Below, one piece after another: positions 43,564 to 48,806 of a stretch of 64,000 nucleotides of DNA. The notes beneath the pieces are model-generated. The model did not search any database. It had not been told where the DNA came from and saw nothing but the letters and a program-made list of their open reading frames with translations. Source of the stretch: Bradyrhizobium betae (lineage in GTDB: Bacteria; Pseudomonadota; Alphaproteobacteria; Rhizobiales; Xanthobacteraceae); contig NZ_CP044543.1 in assembly GCF_008932115.1 (NCBI RefSeq), forward strand, positions 310,001 to 374,000, read 5' to 3'. Positions within the stretch are counted from its first letter, which is position 1. Every line of letters begins with the position of its first letter. Position numbers and translations under genes: made by a program.

Positions 43564-45150
43564 TCACAGTGTTGCAGTGTCTTCCGAGTAGCGCTCGTCG
43601 CGGTTCTCGCTGTAGGCATCGCGTGCTTCCTTGGCGGCGGGCGTCAGCGACTTGACCCAAGGGCGCGAGGTCGAGGCGTACCGGCCATCGTCGGCAGCGT
43701 GATCCTCGCCCGTGGTATCGAGATCCTCAGGCCGCGCCTGATCGTGCTGCAGCACGGGGACCGTGCGGATGAAATCCGTACACGTCGCGAACACGTACAT
43801 CATCGGCCGGCCCGTCGACCAATCGACCGAACCGTCCTCGCTGCGCTTGGCCGTACCGATCAGGCGCGCGCGGAACAGATCCCAGCCCGACATCGGGCCG
43901 CCGCGATCCCGGCTCTCCGAGCGAGACACGCGCGTGTTGTCGGCTTCGCGGAACGGGACCAGCTTCTCCTTGATCAGGACCTGGTTGATGCGCTCTGCGA
44001 TCGACGGGCCGCCATCTTCCTTGAAGGTCGAAGGATCGAGCACGCCGTAGGAGAGTTTCGGATCGTCCTTTTCGAGCCGGGCGATGCGAGCGCCGACCTG
44101 TTCGGCCGTCAGCTTGCCGCCTTTTGCACCATAGTCCTCGCGGTAGCGGATGATGGCGCCGCGAGGCAGCAGCGTTGACCGGTATTGCGAGCCGTCATAA
44201 GCGTCAGGCTTTAAGCCGTCGAGCCCGCGGGCTTCGCGCCCGCCTATCCTGTGGTCGTCGCCGACGACAGCCCACCAGCCGATGCTGAACGGGCTGTAAG
44301 AGCCCCAGTCACCAGAGCGAAACCGCAGCCAATGCCGCGGAAGAGTGAACGGCGCGAGAACATGCTGCGGATTGCTCCACTCGTCGAAGAAGGCGCCTTC
44401 CACCACATCCCAGTCGCCATCGCGCATCGCCTTGACGAGCGAGGCCGAACCGAGGCCGTAAAGCTTGGCCTCGTAGTCCGGGTCATCCTTCATCATCGAA
44501 GGATTGTCTTCGAGCCGCGCCGGGATGAACTGGCGCAGCATGCCGCCTTCAGCCTTCGGCATCCGGCGGACGGCGAGCGGCATCGTGCCGGTGATGAAGG
44601 TGGTCTTGACCCACAGATGCCCGGTATTGCCGGGGTTGGAGCCGCACAGGATCCGCGGAAACTTGCCGACATACTCCGGCGGAAGCGTGATGCCGACCAT
44701 GCGCACGCGCCCCCGCAGGAAGCGGTACATGAATTCGGAGAAGTGCGTCAGCTCATCGATCAGTAGGACGTGGATTTCCGCGCCCTGGTACTTGTAGACG
44801 TCGCTCTCGGCCTTGCAGTGGCAGAGATAGATGCGGCTGCCGTTCCAGAAGCGGACTTCATCGCCGATGATGCGGCACCAGCCACCCAACACCAGCGGCG
44901 CCAGCATCGCGCGGAAGCCCTTGGGGCCTTCCAGATGGTTCTTGTAGAGATCCTCGCGGACGCGGCGGAACAGATAGACCTGAAGGCCCGCGATCGAGCA
45001 GCACCACACGATCGCGGCGACCCGCATCAGATGAGACTTGCCCGGACCGGCCGCGCCGCCGAACAGAACCTCCGTCGCCTCGGTTAGGAACGCGACCCAC
45101 TGCTTGGGCCAGAGGTGAACGCGGAGCGCGTCGGGCCGCTCGTCATGCAC
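43564..45150 (-). CDS. Terminase large subunit
   Basis: A 528-residue packaging motor. Walker A is LFGGAAGPGKSHLM, Walker B LLIDELTHF, and the coupling motif CGSNPGNTGHLWVK. The nuclease half starts near WGSYSPFSIGWWAVVGDD and includes GVLDPSTFKED and later YVFATCTDFIRTVP. I start with the GTG at 45150, which overlaps the upstream small gene by 8 bp; the longer frame has no family sequence. Its position before portal is standard. Confidence 0.9.
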   Translation of the reverse strand: MHDERPDALRVHLWPKQWVAFLTEATEVLFGGAAGPGKSHLMRVAAIVWCCSIAGLQVYLFRRVREDLYKNHLEGPKGFRAMLAPLVLGGWCRIIGDEVRFWNGSRIYLCHCKAESDVYKYQGAEIHVLLIDELTHFSEFMYRFLRGRVRMVGITLPPEYVGKFPRILCGSNPGNTGHLWVKTTFITGTMPLAVRRMPKAEGGMLRQFIPARLEDNPSMMKDDPDYEAKLYGLGSASLVKAMRDGDWDVVEGAFFDEWSNPQHVLAPFTLPRHWLRFRSGDWGSYSPFSIGWWAVVGDDHRIGGREARGLDGLKPDAYDGSQYRSTLLPRGAIIRYREDYGAKGGKLTAEQVGARIARLEKDDPKLSYGVLDPSTFKEDGGPSIAERINQVLIKEKLVPFREADNTRVSRSESRDRGGPMSGWDLFRARLIGTAKRSEDGSVDWSTGRPMMYVFATCTDFIRTVPVLQHDQARPEDLDTTGEDHAADDGRYASTSRPWVKSLTPAAKEARDAYSENRDERYSEDTATL

Positions 45151-45322
45151 AGAGGTACCGCAGGAGTACGCTCGATTGCCGATACGCCTCGATCGCCTGC
45201 TCAGTGAGCGACGTACTGTTCTGCTTGGTGAAATCAAACCACATCGCGTCCCACTGCTCTTTCGTGGGGTTGCGATGCGCGATCAGCTCGCCAGCCTCAT
45301 TGCGGTAGCAGATGATGCTCAT
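45143..45322 (-). CDS. Small protein between terminase subunits
   Basis: A 59-residue protein: SIICYRNEAGELIAHRNPTK, then QWDAMWFDFTKQNSTSLTEQ and AIEAYRQSSVLLRYLCA. It overlaps the small-terminase stop (ATGA) and the large-terminase start by 8 bp, so it is in a coupled chain. I recognise no family; one antiparallel sheet plus helix seems likely. Confidence 0.55.
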   Translation of the reverse strand: MSIICYRNEAGELIAHRNPTKEQWDAMWFDFTKQNSTSLTEQAIEAYRQSSVLLRYLCA

Positions 45323-45801
45323 GCACCCGGATTTCCCGTCATGATGATCGTCGGCCCGGCGACGCTGACTGCCGCGCCCGCCAGCGGCACGCCGTCCTTG
45401 CCGGTCGCCTCGACCTTGTCGCGCCAGACGCCGGCAAGCTTCGCCTTGGTCTGGATGCACTGATTGGCCGCGCTCGGCTCTTTCAGCTTCATGGCCAGAT
45501 CGCGTGCCTCTTCCGCCTCGACCAGCAGCGAGGCAACCGACGTCGAGGCCAGCATCGCGCCCTGGTACTGGATGCCGGCGACGCGCTCGCGGATCACCTT
45601 GCGCTGGCAGAACTTTCGCGCGTTCGCGCGGAACGACGAGGCGCCGGTATCTAAACCGCCAAGCGAGGCCGCCTCCTCCTGCAGGCTCGCCGTCATCGGC
45701 AGGCCGCGCTTGGCGCGCTCCTCAGGTGTCAGCGCAAAGCCCGCAGCCAAATGCTGCGCGGCGCGCTCTTCCTGGGGGTTACGCAAGGCCACGGAGTGCA
45801 T
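45319..45801 (-). CDS. Terminase small subunit-like protein
   Basis: A 160-residue protein directly before the large subunit. It has a helix-rich core (EERAAQHLAAGFALTPEERA, ARKFCQRKVIRERVAGIQYQ) and a long helix VASLLVEAEEARDLAMKLKE followed by AANQCIQTKAKLAGVWRDKV, as in terminase_2-type small subunits. These bind the packaging start site and feed DNA to the motor. The N-terminal helix-turn-helix is less clear. ATG is at 45801, with CAGGTGG eleven bases upstream. Confidence 0.65.
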   Translation of the reverse strand: MHSVALRNPQEERAAQHLAAGFALTPEERAKRGLPMTASLQEEAASLGGLDTGASSFRANARKFCQRKVIRERVAGIQYQGAMLASTSVASLLVEAEEARDLAMKLKEPSAANQCIQTKAKLAGVWRDKVEATGKDGVPLAGAAVSVAGPTIIMTGNPGA

Positions 45802-45850
45802 CGATCTGATTCCACCTGAGTCCGTCCTGACTCATTCCCGCCGCAAAGAG

Positions 45851-45892
45851 AAAAAGCCGCCCGCGACAGGGGCGAACCTTTCGCGAGCGGCT
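45851..45892 (-). terminator. Terminator T1 before the late operon
   Basis: On the minus strand AGCCGCTCGCGA (45892-45881) pairs with TCGCGGGCGGCT (45866-45855) with one mismatch, followed by TTTTT (45855-45851). It lies only 50 bp before the small-terminase start on the same strand. The 348-bp gap 45802-46149 has no gene; it holds T1 to T3, another hairpin and four direct repeats. Confidence 0.8.
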
Positions 45893-45960
45893 AAGTCTAG
45901 GGAGGAAACGCCCAAGGAGGGCAGCGGCAACGATCCGCGCTACCGCACAACCTATGTCTA

Positions 45961-46000
45961 AAAACAAAAACGCCGCCCGTGTTTCATGCACGGACGGCGT
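45961..46000 (-). terminator. Terminator T2 before the late operon
   Basis: Minus-strand ACGCCGTCCGTG (46000-45989) pairs with CACGGGCGGCGT (45981-45970), then TTTTTGTTTT. The one imperfect pair is a U-G wobble in minus-strand RNA but a C-A mismatch in plus-strand RNA, so it is built for the minus direction. Confidence 0.85.
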
Positions 46001-46029
46001 TCGCCGGGTCTTCCCACTTCCCACAGAGG

Positions 46030-46047
46030 AGGAGGTTTTGGCCTCCT
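46030..46047. other. Small hairpin AGGAGG-N6-CCTCCT
   Basis: A perfect 6-bp stem between T2 and T3. Each arm can act as, or hide, a Shine-Dalgarno sequence, but no start codon follows at a suitable distance. Confidence 0.4.
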
Positions 46048-46054
46048 ATAAACG

Positions 46055-46087
46055 ACAAAGCCCCGCACGATGGCGGGGCTTTGTTTT
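46055..46087. terminator. Terminator T3, bidirectional
   Basis: ACAAAGCCCCGC (46055-46066) and GCGGGGCTTTGT (46073-46084) form a perfect 12-bp stem with a 6-base loop. TTTT follows on the plus strand; on the minus strand the end is CTTTGTCGTTT. It is the first terminator met after the NusG-like gene. Confidence 0.85.
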
Positions 46088-46106
46088 ATCGCAGGCTCCG
46101 CACAAC

Positions 46107-46146
46107 GCGTGACTTGCGCGTGACGTTGCCGTGATTTGTGCGTGAC
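46107..46146. repeat. Four 11-bp direct repeats (GCGTGAC + 4)
   Basis: GCGTGAC occurs at 46107, 46118 and 46140, and as CCGTGAT at 46129, with exactly 11-bp spacing. On the minus strand the unit is GTCACGC plus four bases. The array starts right after the stop codon of the NusG-like gene and ends 20 bp before T3. It may be an antitermination recognition site, an iteron set for replication, or an operator. Confidence 0.7.
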
Positions 46147-46149
46147 GCT

Positions 46150-46857
46150 CTACTTCAGGCTTTCGAGGGAGGAGAGCGGAGCCTTTGCCAGCGTCACCCT
46201 TCCGAATATTTCAATAGCTATGGTCGCGCACATTGATTCGTCAAGTTCCTCAAGCTTCCCGTCCCTGAGTTGCTGCTGCAGTTTGTGTGGCAGCTGCTCG
46301 ATGACAGCTGTGAACCCACGGAGCGGCCCGAAGTCTTGAATTCGAACGTGATCTCCAACAGCAAAGAGATCGGCTAGCGCCGTCGATCCGGGGATCATGC
46401 CGGTATCGCTGTCTTCAAAACTTTTGAGGTGGTTGACATAGACGTCGTCGACGATGACCGGCCGGTCTCCAGCGCAGTGCAGACCGTACACACCCGCAAA
46501 GCTAAACAACTGATGGCAGCGCTCATCGGTGAGATCGAATTGGATGTAGGGATAACCCGGAAAGACCGGGATGATGTGTGGTCGACTGACGGCAGCACCC
46601 GCCTTGCGCTGCGACGGCGTCATCTGACGCAGCGGCACGCGCTTCAGGATCATGGTCTTAGGGTAATAGACCTCGTAGCCGAACGGCTTGAGGAACTCGG
46701 CGATCTTCACCTCCGCGCCGCTCTTGACCTGCAACAGATACCAACCCTTCCCGTCGCGCTTACCGATGCGCGGGCCGCGCGGCCACGGACATGCCGCACC
46801 CTCGATGCCGGTCGTGCCATCCGCGTTCTGGAACCCCATCTTGTTCACTGCCAACAT
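46150..46857 (-). CDS. NusG/RfaH-like transcription antiterminator
   Basis: A 235-residue NusG paralog. NGN domain at about residues 38-140: GWYLLQVKSGAEVKIAEFLK, then FGYEVYYPKTMILKRVP and IPVFPGYPYIQFDLTD. KOW domain at about 163-192: FAVGDHVRIQDFGPLRGFTA. NGN binds the RNA polymerase clamp and blocks pausing or termination; specialised paralogs such as RfaH act only on marked operons. I start at MLAVNKMGF (46857), with GAGGGCAGG upstream. It is the last early gene and is followed by repeats and stacked terminators, then the late operon. Confidence 0.85.
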   Translation of the reverse strand: MLAVNKMGFQNADGTTGIEGAACPWPRGPRIGKRDGKGWYLLQVKSGAEVKIAEFLKPFGYEVYYPKTMILKRVPLRQMTPSQRKAGAAVSRPHIIPVFPGYPYIQFDLTDERCHQLFSFAGVYGLHCAGDRPVIVDDVYVNHLKSFEDSDTGMIPGSTALADLFAVGDHVRIQDFGPLRGFTAVIEQLPHKLQQQLRDGKLEELDESMCATIAIEIFGRVTLAKAPLSSLESLK

Positions 46858-46877
46858 CCTGCCCTCACCTTGGTCGT

Positions 46878-48056
46878 TCACGATTTGAAGTCCTGGTAGT
46901 CTTGGTCGCTCATCAGTTGGTCTGGCGGCGATGCCGTCGAAAGCGAACCGTCCTTGCGCGGCGGCCACAGCCACGGCGCACTCGATCCTTCCTGCAAGCG
47001 AGGATGGTTGGCCGTGACGTGCTCCGAGACGAAACTTTCCCAAGCCGCTGCCTGCTGCCGGCCCAGTGTGACCCACTGATCGCGCGGCGGGATCGGCGCT
47101 CCGGGCGCGCCGGCAAGAGCCAGAAGCCGCGGCGTGATGGGCCGGTAGTAGTACAGCACCCCGCCCCGCAGCATGGTGAGGCGCGCATGATCGCGCACGC
47201 CAGCAATCTCATGGGCAGTCAAGACCGCGCGAGCCTCAGCGCTGTCGCGCGCATAGCCGGACGATGACGCCTTTGGTTGTTCCTCCAGCAAGGTCCACCG
47301 CTTCTGCTCCAGATAGGTGAAGCCTGCCGGCGGAAACTTGCGCCCGAGCTTCTTGCGATGCTCCAGAAACGGAGTGATCCCGGCAAGTGCGGCCTCGCCT
47401 TCGCCGGCGTCCATCGCAAACCAGGCACGATCGACGCGGGTCTGATCGTCATCGGCATTGGTCGGCCATCGTCGCTTGAACTCGGCCAGATTGAGGGCGT
47501 GCTTCTCACGCGTGCGCTCGCGCTCTCTCTCAAGTTTTTGGGTAGATTCCGTCCTTGGTAAATCATTGGTTTGTATATCTTTATAGGCCACCTGCGGGTC
47601 AGCCGGAGGTGGGTCAGCCAGCGACGGGTAACCCGTAGGTGGATGTTGGGGCGGAAGCTGCCCTTCCGGAGCGCCCTCGGACCGCAAAACATCCTCCGAT
47701 GCATCGGGCGCGGCTTCGCTGGACACCAGCGACAAAGCCCGCCTGACCTCTTCGTCAGACAGTTCCGGTCCGGGCTGATCCCGGATTTCATAAATGAAAA
47801 AGTAGGTGCCGTTGGGTAGGCGCGTCTTCTCCGGGCGGCACCACCCGAAGCGCACGAGATTTGTGATGACGCGCTTGATCGCATCGCGCCCCATGCTCCA
47901 ACGGCGCATCAGCGCGGGCCGGCGCACCTCCCAGTCGTGCGGGCGCGACAGCAGGTAGGCAAGAATGCCAACTTCATCGGCGGCGAGCCGTTCGTCTTCG
48001 AACAGCACATTACCGATCGTCGTGTAGTTGGCCGTGTGACGGCGCCGGATGATCAA
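46878..48056 (-). CDS. Replication-type protein with N-terminal winged helix
   Basis: A 392-residue protein. I start with TTG at 48056, with AGGAG nine bases upstream. Residues 1-85 form a winged-helix module: NYTTIGNVLFEDERLAADEV, then ALMRRWSMGRDAIKRVITNL, typical of phage replication (O-like, DnaD-like) proteins. A low-complexity Pro-rich segment follows, then FKRRWPTNADDDQTRVDRAW and an AWxxF-type C-terminal domain. It should bind the phage origin and load helicase. The next gene downstream is the NusG-like gene, 20 bp away. Confidence 0.65.
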   Translation of the reverse strand: MIIRRRHTANYTTIGNVLFEDERLAADEVGILAYLLSRPHDWEVRRPALMRRWSMGRDAIKRVITNLVRFGWCRPEKTRLPNGTYFFIYEIRDQPGPELSDEEVRRALSLVSSEAAPDASEDVLRSEGAPEGQLPPQHPPTGYPSLADPPPADPQVAYKDIQTNDLPRTESTQKLERERERTREKHALNLAEFKRRWPTNADDDQTRVDRAWFAMDAGEGEAALAGITPFLEHRKKLGRKFPPAGFTYLEQKRWTLLEEQPKASSSGYARDSAEARAVLTAHEIAGVRDHARLTMLRGGVLYYYRPITPRLLALAGAPGAPIPPRDQWVTLGRQQAAAWESFVSEHVTANHPRLQEGSSAPWLWPPRKDGSLSTASPPDQLMSDQDYQDFKS

Positions 48057-48091
48057 GAAATCTGCTCCTGTGGAAAAGTCGAACAGCGGGC

Positions 48092-48114
48092 ATGCCCGGG
48101 AATAACCCGGGCAT
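48092..48114. promoter_or_regulatory. Perfect 9-bp hairpin upstream of the replication gene
   Basis: ATGCCCGGG-AATAA-CCCGGGCAT lies in the 115-bp space between the Cys-motif gene and the TTG start of the replication-type gene. It has no U-tract, so it is more likely an RNA processing, attenuation or protein-binding site than a terminator. Confidence 0.4.
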
Positions 48115-48171
48115 AAGCGCGCGACGCCATCGGCCGCGCGTGAGACGATGCGATGGTGGAAGGACTGACGC

Positions 48172-48441
48172 TCACGGCTTGACCCCGATCTGAGGGACGC
48201 ACGCGAGGTCATCGCACGCGATCTGTGCGCTCGATGCCGACCGCCGCCACTCGCGCCAGGCGCGGCCGTCGGGCGCGTGCACGGTCACCTTGACGGTGCC
48301 GCAGACCGAACAGGTGCGCTCGGTCTGCTGGTGTCGTTCCAGCTCGAGCGAGGGCGGTACGCTGACCGGCGCGCCGAAGACGTGGTGCGGGCCCGGCTGG
48401 GGCGAGGCACCCGCAAAGTGCCCATCGACCACTTCGCTCAT
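48172..48441 (-). CDS. Small Cys-motif (zinc-knuckle-like) phage protein
   Basis: An 89-residue protein with TERTCSVCGTVKVTVHAPDG, RAWREWRR and a second cysteine pair in ACDDLACVPQ. Four Cys could hold one zinc. The motif closely matches TERQCERCGIVKVSRSEH in the gene at 50919-51131, so the two are paralogs. Its start overlaps the previous stop by 4 bp. Role unknown; nucleic-acid or protein binding is likely for such fingers. Confidence 0.6.
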   Translation of the reverse strand: MSEVVDGHFAGASPQPGPHHVFGAPVSVPPSLELERHQQTERTCSVCGTVKVTVHAPDGRAWREWRRSASSAQIACDDLACVPQIGVKP

Positions 48442-48806
48442 GGCCGCACTCCCGCGCGGCGCTTGTCGAGCGCGGAGTAGCCCGGCGGAGGATCGCCGAA
48501 CACGCGTGCAGTCAGGTCCTGCCGGTCACGGGCGGCGCTGCGCCGTTCGAAATCGGCTTGGGCCTGCTCGGTTGGCCCGCCGCCACGCGGGCCCGCGGAA
48601 AACGATGCGCCGAACCGCAGAAAGCGCGCGGCGACGCCGTCAACGGTTTTACCGATCGCATGCGCGATCGTGGCGAATACCTCGCCCTGCGCACCCCAGG
48701 GCCCGTCGCTCTCGCCATGATGATCGGCGAAGTCGCGCTGCCAGATCATGGCGGCGCGGCGGATGTCGATCGGCGTCCAGGGATGAAATCTCGATTGTTC
48801 CGTCAT
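48438..48806 (-). CDS. Small SANT/HTH-like phage protein
   Basis: A 122-residue protein. The first 70 residues read FHPWTPIDIRRAAMIWQRDF, then GEVFATIAHAIGKTVDGVAA, RFLRFGASF. The Trp spacing and the repeated helix pattern with VAARF look like a Myb/SANT-like DNA-binding unit such as in GcrA-type or transposon-derived regulators. The rest is Gly/Arg-rich. It overlaps both neighbours by 4 bp. The role as regulator is inferred. Confidence 0.55.
   Translation of the reverse strand: MTEQSRFHPWTPIDIRRAAMIWQRDFADHHGESDGPWGAQGEVFATIAHAIGKTVDGVAARFLRFGASFSAGPRGGGPTEQAQADFERRSAARDRQDLTARVFGDPPPGYSALDKRRAGVRP

Follow-up and report, generated by a model that had tools for sequence, protein, structure and literature searches.

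In the temperate phage described here, the change from early to late transcription is probably controlled by the phage's own NusG paralog, a NusG-SP of the RfaH/LoaP type. This reading draws on a stretch of 64,000 nucleotides of Bradyrhizobium betae DNA, hereafter the window, and on comparison of its prophage with related loci. At the early/late junction of the prophage, where all features lie on the minus strand, the NusG-family gene is followed by a repeat array that runs into an ops-like candidate recruitment site, by hairpins T3 and T2, by an RNA of the αr8 family that ends at hairpin T1, and by the terminase genes.

According to the model that we favor, polymerase coming from an early promoter would normally stop at T3/T2 (or T1). 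Once accumulated, the NusG paralog would load on polymerase at a site just downstream of its own gene, displace host NusG and stay on the polymerase, which would then read through T3, T2 and T1 and go on to transcribe the late genes. The late transcript would have the αr8-type RNA as its 5' leader, and RNA ended at T1 would be released as a small RNA with an anti-Shine-Dalgarno core that may act in trans. Judged from the sequence, read-through of this kind appears to be the most economical model, and the candidate loading site precedes the first terminator, as the model requires. The initial annotation had proposed that the phage NusG paralog opens late expression via the repeats; the comparison supports the layout on which that proposal was built, but T1 belongs to an αr8 small RNA and the recruitment site is revised below.

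Architecture of the early/late junction

The junction and the late genes comprise the following features.

46878..48212, minus strand: replication-initiation-like gene, directly upstream of the NusG-family gene (PHROG search)
46150..46857, minus strand: NusG-family antiterminator paralog, the last early gene (Pfam, PHROGs, NCBIfam, 18-row alignment, AlphaFold model, Foldseek)
46104..46147, minus strand: four 11-bp units, CGTCACGCACA/AATCACGGCAA/CGTCACGCGCA/AGTCACGCGTT (sequence, self-similarity)
46091..46112, minus strand: candidate ops-like site for recruitment, TCACGCGTTGTGCGGAGCCTGC, which overlaps the last repeat (position and family consensus; weak in the window alone)
46055..46084, minus strand: hairpin T3, 12 bp, perfect (folding; U-tail weak on the minus strand, opposite strand T-rich)
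45968..46002, minus strand: intrinsic terminator T2 (terminator scan and folding)
45951..45956, minus strand: CATAGG box just 3' of the T2 T-tract (sequence and junction comparison)
45840..45929, minus strand: αr8/MmgR-family small RNA (Rfam RF00519), whose 5' hairpin reaches to about 45946
45899..45908, minus strand: 10-nt αr8 core, UUUCCUCCCU, of anti-Shine-Dalgarno type (sequence; core as given in a passage of PMC12559287)
45855..45892, minus strand: T1, the intrinsic terminator of the αr8 RNA (terminator scan, folding, Rfam)
45806..45834, minus strand: conserved block TGAGTCA..GACTCA..GGAATCAG before TerS, tied to this terminase family
45319..45801, minus strand: small terminase (TerS) candidate, the first late gene, named by position and conservation
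43564..45237, minus strand: large terminase (TerL; phrog_979, 4.7e-28)
40720-38690, minus strand: portal, annotated late gene
34701-33538, minus strand: major head, annotated late gene
31944-30235, minus strand: head closure, annotated late gene

The order given in the initial annotation, a NusG-like gene, four repeats, three hairpins and then terminase, was confirmed. Its placement of terminase shortly after T1 also held, with T1 ending about 54 bp before the start of the TerS candidate (45801), as did that of the late genes on one strand, since TerL, portal, major head and head closure are all on the minus strand. It had seen no clear promoter before terminase, and at our scan settings no sigma-70-like site was found in 44500-48500 (0 found, 0.7 expected).

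The last early gene encodes a NusG paralog

The NusG-family protein of the window has 235 aa and matches Pfam NusG (E 1.2e-11, 45.4 bits, cut-off 22.2) and PHROG 6386, 'transcription antiterminator' (2.3e-15). We aligned 36 NusG-like proteins, comprising 32 upstream ORFs of αr8 loci and the proteins of the window, L063, L066 and L068. The NGN domain (PF02357) is present in the window protein, and 34 of the 36 match it at E 0.01. A KOW domain had been assigned as well; the NGN half of that claim stands, but Pfam returned no KOW match in the window protein, and a KOW match was found in 6/36 of the aligned relatives.

The RfaH, NusG and LoaP profiles align to the window protein as far as residues 187-191. 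It reaches 45.2 of the 144.5 bits set for the RfaH equivalog TIGR01955 and 35.6 of the 125 bits set for LoaP NF033641. It falls below the curated cut-offs of all of the RfaH, NusG, LoaP and UpxY models, and we therefore class it as a NusG paralog that lies outside these named types, and not as RfaH, LoaP or Q.

An AlphaFold model built on an 18-row alignment has a mean pLDDT of 73, with a good NGN domain. The modeled C-terminal domain is uncertain, with mixed strand and helix (helices at 191-199 and 209-219), partly below pLDDT 50. Among the best Foldseek matches are 8f5g (a NusG-RNA complex), 5ond (RfaH with ops DNA) and 2oug (RfaH), and the RfaH matches include autoinhibited forms. In sequence, the C-terminal domain has diverged and carries an insertion, LPxKLQQQL..ELDES, at residues about 186-208. 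Those close relatives that have the 11-bp array share this insertion.

The host genome contains one other NusG match, which is stronger and of housekeeping type. Among 50,697 named phage records searched by tblastn, only one matches the window NusG, at 24% identity.

The repeat array ends in an ops-like candidate site

The four 11-bp units that had been noted after the NusG gene are present at 46147-46104, and among lags 5-19 self-similarity there is highest at lag 11 (0.46; p 0.03 across these lags). The same peak occurs in 4/4 close relatives, L063-L066 (p 0.012, 0.024, 0.13 and 0.002). Periodicity of 11 or 12 nt at p <=0.05 was found in the window, L063, L064, L066, L277, L279, L281 and L286; only 4/10 of the loci near A7, a group of relatives described below, reached p 0.05. 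Six tested loci of other NusG clades had no periodic array, and further ones inspected by eye were likewise without repeats.

A second element was defined outside the phages, at 43 chromosomal NusG paralog loci (L007-L059) of the same bacterial family, many of them near-identical relatives. Within 200 bp after the stop codon, TGCGGTAGC occurs in 36/43 of these (0.05 in shuffles) and, within one mismatch, in 41/43 (1.4 in shuffles). By hand count, TCACCCSGANTGCGGTAGC and the letters that follow it agree with RfaH ops12, printed as GGCGGTAGCGTG in a passage of PMC5995543, at 8-11 of 12 positions, mostly 10. In its own right, TCACCCSGANTGCGGTAGC is a strongly conserved element resembling RfaH ops that follows the chromosomal NusG paralogs of this family.

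Taking the 5' half of the ops-like site as the chromosomal loci define it, we looked for it within 120 bp downstream of the NusG gene in 23 phage loci of the wider clade to which the window's NusG belongs; in some of these the likeness had been noticed before counting. L039 was omitted because of a doubtful ORF, L051 as a member of another NusG clade, and the distant A7 matches were also omitted. The half-site was found in 12/23 within one mismatch (0.04 expected) and in 17/23 within two (0.78 expected). The window itself has three mismatches, a match that is not significant alone (p 0.175); L063 has four, L065 two (p 0.01) and L066 one. Where the array exists, the half-site is its last unit, and in array-bearing loci of the window's NusG clade this last unit runs into sequence resembling the ops type. 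Other NusG clades often carry GTGCGRAGC, a motif chosen after viewing those loci, which is exact in 6/18 (0.07 expected) and within one mismatch in 12/18 (1.1 expected).

The repeats had been taken as the recruitment signal, and they are plausible as part of it. The ops-like sequence that ends the array is the better candidate: because the NusG-bearing phages of other clades that were compared are without such repeats, recruitment more likely occurs at this sequence than at the repeats alone.

Terminators and the αr8/MmgR RNA

Compared with shuffled sequences, T3, T2 and T1 fold stably, with z-scores of -5.4, -3.2 and -4.4. A simple terminator scan of 44500-48500 returned three sites, namely T2 and two registers of T1, and missed T3; shuffles gave 3.0 +/- 1.7, so the number of sites does not by itself exceed chance. 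It is the folding z-scores that support the hairpins. The three terminator-like hairpins described earlier are in this sense upheld as stable folds, but the scan count is at chance level and the U-tail of T3 is weak. Between T3 and T2, a small GGAGG/CCTCC hairpin at 46046-46031 is not above shuffles (z -0.4); it is retained with altered letters in L068.

T1 had been read as a terminator before terminase. It is a terminator, but that reading missed that it is the end of an αr8/MmgR small RNA. The covariance model RF00519 (suhB/mmgR, αr8) matches 45929-45840 with 63 bits (cut-off 41, E 3.3e-12), and on this sequence evidence the RNA before terminase is assigned to the αr8/MmgR family. The window copy folds with the core unpaired and with the T1 hairpin. 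When 26 junction RNAs were folded singly, the 5' hairpin formed in 25 and the T1 hairpin in 25, while the core was unpaired in only 17. RNAalifold on 24 junction RNAs gave 14 pairs, 3 of them changed on both sides, with a covariation term of only -0.53; the T1 stem was not recovered because stem lengths differ. The T-tracts of T1 are poor in L063, L065 and L005.

The family is widespread in the hosts. The host genome has four RF00519 matches, three above the cut-off, and in a sample of 98 genomes from the genus every one (98/98) has a match, which exceeds the cut-off in 97. By eye, the host-type αr8 genes of the genus (30 loci) have a promoter-like TTGCNN-N17-CATATT upstream. The phage copies beside NusG show no such host-type promoter-like sequence by eye; a terminator and CATAGG stand there instead.

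The αr8 RNA could instead be an independent, trans-acting small RNA gene, with the late promoter in the 54 bp after T1 and with NusG only speeding elongation or blocking Rho in long phage operons. Parts of PMC12559287 and PMC7143759 describe αr8 RNAs as Hfq-associated trans small RNAs in Caulobacter and Sinorhizobium, and the interval from T1 to TerS contains a conserved block of 29 bp; both points favor this explanation. Against it, no sigma-70-like promoter was found after T1, no conserved promoter is visible for the αr8 copies beside NusG, and the block goes with this terminase, being absent from L064 and L066, so that a packaging role fits it better. We consider an independent small RNA gene of this kind quite unlikely, and continue to favor its role as the leader of a read-through transcript.

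We also considered GCGGTAGCG, in the 5' stem of the αr8 RNA, as a second ops site, and dropped it as specific evidence. Within one mismatch it occurs in 17/32 αr8-core viral loci with NusG (NusG+), in 10/62 without (NusG-; at least 1200 bp upstream) and in 4/22 on shortened contigs; NusG+ loci such as L157, L160, L169 and L176 are without the stem. Among 34 further RF00519 loci, 30 are host-type copies with the GCGGTAGCG stem (28 exact, 2 with one change), and the remaining four are the window's own copy, which has the stem, one without it and two in which no core was found.

The CATAGG box and a possible late promoter

In the NusG-side αr8 copies, an intrinsic terminator and its T-tract are followed by CATAGG[GT]. 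ATAGG lies within 80 bp upstream of the core in 23/32 NusG+ loci vs 1/62 NusG- loci (Fisher p 1e-13) and in 5/22 on shortened contigs, with 4/120 loci left uncounted because under 80 bp remained upstream. YATAGG was found within 28 nt of 20 of 33 NusG-αr8 junction terminators, drawn from 26 of the 32 NusG+ loci; among control terminators it followed 0/57 in chromosomal loci and 1/169 in NusG- viral loci. Across 37 aligned junctions there is no -35-like conservation upstream of CATAGG, and in three further junctions (L208, L006, L005) the pattern found no box. An ordinary sigma-70 promoter at CATAGG was rejected, as there is no conserved -35.

A late promoter of unusual type at this box is the chief rival to read-through. 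As in lambda Q control, an always-on promoter with TAGGKT as its -10 would give a short RNA ending at T1, and NusG would only lift T1. TAnnnT is a minimal -10, the box lies close before the αr8 5' hairpin and is tightly linked to NusG, and an αr8 RNA that stops at T1 would occupy a position like that of lambda 6S RNA. This explanation has to accommodate the missing -35 and a box that also precedes late sequence without αr8 (L285, L039) and follows the first terminators in L135 and L159. The chromosomal αr8 promoter-like sequence is, by eye, absent from the NusG-side phage copies, and the NusG gene and its candidate loading site lie upstream of the box. We regard a promoter at CATAGG as unlikely, and read-through from upstream as the better account. 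Separately, in several phages the UAGG of the box is complementary to the CCUA with which the αr8 core ends; by eye, their pairing closes a three-way junction in about ten of 26 predicted folds.

Conservation of the layout in other phages and prophages

The order Rep-NusG-TerS-TerL is kept in L063, L065 and L005, with NusG identities of 62, 61 and 33%. L068 keeps Rep, TerS (96%) and TerL (88%), but the position of NusG is taken by a highly divergent NusG-like ORF (L068:3446-4195). L064 and L066 have NusG (61 and 51%), array, hairpins and αr8, but neither this TerS nor this TerL finds a match there. Whether the gene, repeats and terminators stay together in relatives had been put forward as a check: NusG, candidate site and terminators do recur, but the repeats are absent in other clades.

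A search of viral contigs for the exact αr8 core gave at least 120 loci. Among the 120 listed, 32 have a NusG-like ORF 85-759 bp upstream on the same strand, as do 28 of the 90 listed with at least 1200 bp upstream. A six-frame profile scan of the 120 listed loci found 33 ORFs in the upstream zone vs 3 elsewhere (1.08 Mb), a ratio in which the zone is favored because the profile was trained on upstream-zone ORFs. Phage loci share ancestry and some contigs are near-identical, so these association counts are not independent.

As the 120 loci had been chosen for the core, the association was also counted in reverse, from NusG. Of 27 viral loci retrieved with NusG, queries and self removed, 20 have the core at a distance of no more than 900 bp, and in 14 of the 20 it is exact. 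The 20/27 are made up of 4/4 for L063-L066 (self L062 removed), 9/13 for A6, 5/5 for A8 and 2/5 near A7; L263-L265 are close relatives of each other. Before query removal, the raw counts were 13/17 for A6, 7/10 near A7 (37% or more, L277-L286) and 8/8 for A8. The distant A7 viral matches (31% identity or less), which stand outside the 20/27, have the core in 0/68; of 144 A7 viral relatives 80 were kept, and 78 were usable. L280, L285 and L286 are NusG junctions without αr8.

In whole genomes, αr8 is present at 5/10 prophage-type loci found by the window NusG (L005, L006, L034, L035, L051), with L005 counted by exact core only, as it misses the Rfam cut-off. A genome-contig scan with query A6 gave 9 loci, 5/9 with αr8, one of them apparently a query's own strain; the scan with query A1 found no relative.

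Downstream, we scanned 58 of 82 picked ORFs, leaving out 24 that were mainly ORFs against the expected direction. Their PHROG matches were most often to HNH endonucleases, to large and small terminase, and to neck and tail proteins. The first ORF chosen downstream of αr8 by a crude picker is on the same strand in 23/31 NusG+ loci and on the other strand in 8/31.

The recurrence might be inherited baggage, with NusG, αr8 and late genes co-inherited in a small number of phage lineages but not functionally linked. In its favor, the loci are related and the counts are not independent, and the L262 and L268 junctions are without most of the layout. Yet the layout is kept where NusG is only 15-23% identical to that of the window (L120, L124, L133, L113), the core is exact in the 14 of 20 noted above, the genes downstream differ between loci, and beside NusG other sequence stands where αr8 otherwise has its promoter-like part. 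We judge mere co-inheritance very improbable, and a working link between NusG and late expression remains our preferred reading.

A wider interpretation is possible, and we offer it tentatively. A class of alphaproteobacterial phages may use its own NusG paralog as late switch, with a composite signal made of the 11-12-bp array and ops-like site and of the terminator and CATAGG, and with αr8 as late leader; the chromosomal αr8/MmgR family and the phage leaders would then share descent, one made from the other.

The terminase side of the junction

The TerS candidate has no Pfam, PHROG or NCBIfam match. It is 75-96% identical beside TerL in L063, L065, L068 and L005, and the 29-bp block at 45834-45806 is present in L063, L065, L068, L005 and L119. 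L064 and L066, whose junctions are otherwise alike, have neither the block nor a TerS/TerL match. As the block accompanies this terminase, a packaging role fits it better, and it may be a packaging site. The small hairpin described within it (45834-45816) does not exceed shuffles in stability (z +1.1), yet its letters are retained together with this terminase family. A cos/pac packaging reading of the αr8 core was rejected because L064 and L066 keep the core without this terminase and Rfam names the RNA.

Relation to known antitermination systems

The proposed switch would be a known kind of control, that of RfaH and LoaP, in an arrangement that itself appears to be new. Like RfaH/ops, it involves a NusG paralog, here with Foldseek matches to RfaH, and the TGCGGTAGC context of the chromosomal relatives resembles ops12 as given in part of PMC5995543. 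It differs in that the protein is below the equivalog cut-off, the operon is a phage late operon and intrinsic terminators are the apparent barrier; the site has diverged and, in part of the clade, is preceded by an 11-12-bp array. A passage of PMC7819879 describes RfaH as rather inefficient at intrinsic terminators, unlike LoaP, which counts against RfaH-like read-through. A section of PMC12691694 reports that LoaP, a NusG paralog of Bacillus, has been proven to pass intrinsic terminators in the dfn leader, ahead of a long operon. The prophage likewise has a NusG paralog gene with predicted intrinsic terminators ahead of a long operon; the window protein is below the LoaP cut-off.

In lambda, the antiterminator Q is made late in early expression, and a short leader RNA from pR', the 6S RNA, ends at the terminator tR' before the late genes. 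The prophage resembles this in that a phage antiterminator gene ends the early region and a short RNA runs to a terminator before the late genes; it differs in that the protein is of NusG type, no late promoter was found and the leader RNA is of the αr8 family. With αr8/MmgR/SisA-D (RF00519) the RNA shares the core UUUCCUCCCU, a weak hairpin before it and a terminator after it. It differs in lying between a prophage NusG gene and terminase, with no host-type promoter and with a terminator and CATAGG upstream.

Known or proposed targets of NusG paralogs, in the parts of PMC7593976 and PMC7819879 that treat them, are capsule, conjugation, toxin and antibiotic operons, and a passage of PMC7593976 mentions rfaH-like genes on prophages. 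No description of a NusG paralog as a phage late switch was found among the literature matches listed, and a narrow literature search for αr8/suhB RNA with phage or prophage found nothing. If the model is true, this would be a third type of phage switch beside lambda N and Q, would offer many natural variants for comparing protein and signal, and would tie a conserved alphaproteobacterial small RNA family to phage late transcription.

Two other genes of the window were also noted: a GapR-like DNA-binding protein is encoded at 51397-51128 in the early region (Pfam 2.4e-28), and a 1483-residue ORF at 56488-52037 has DNA methyltransferase and helicase matches.
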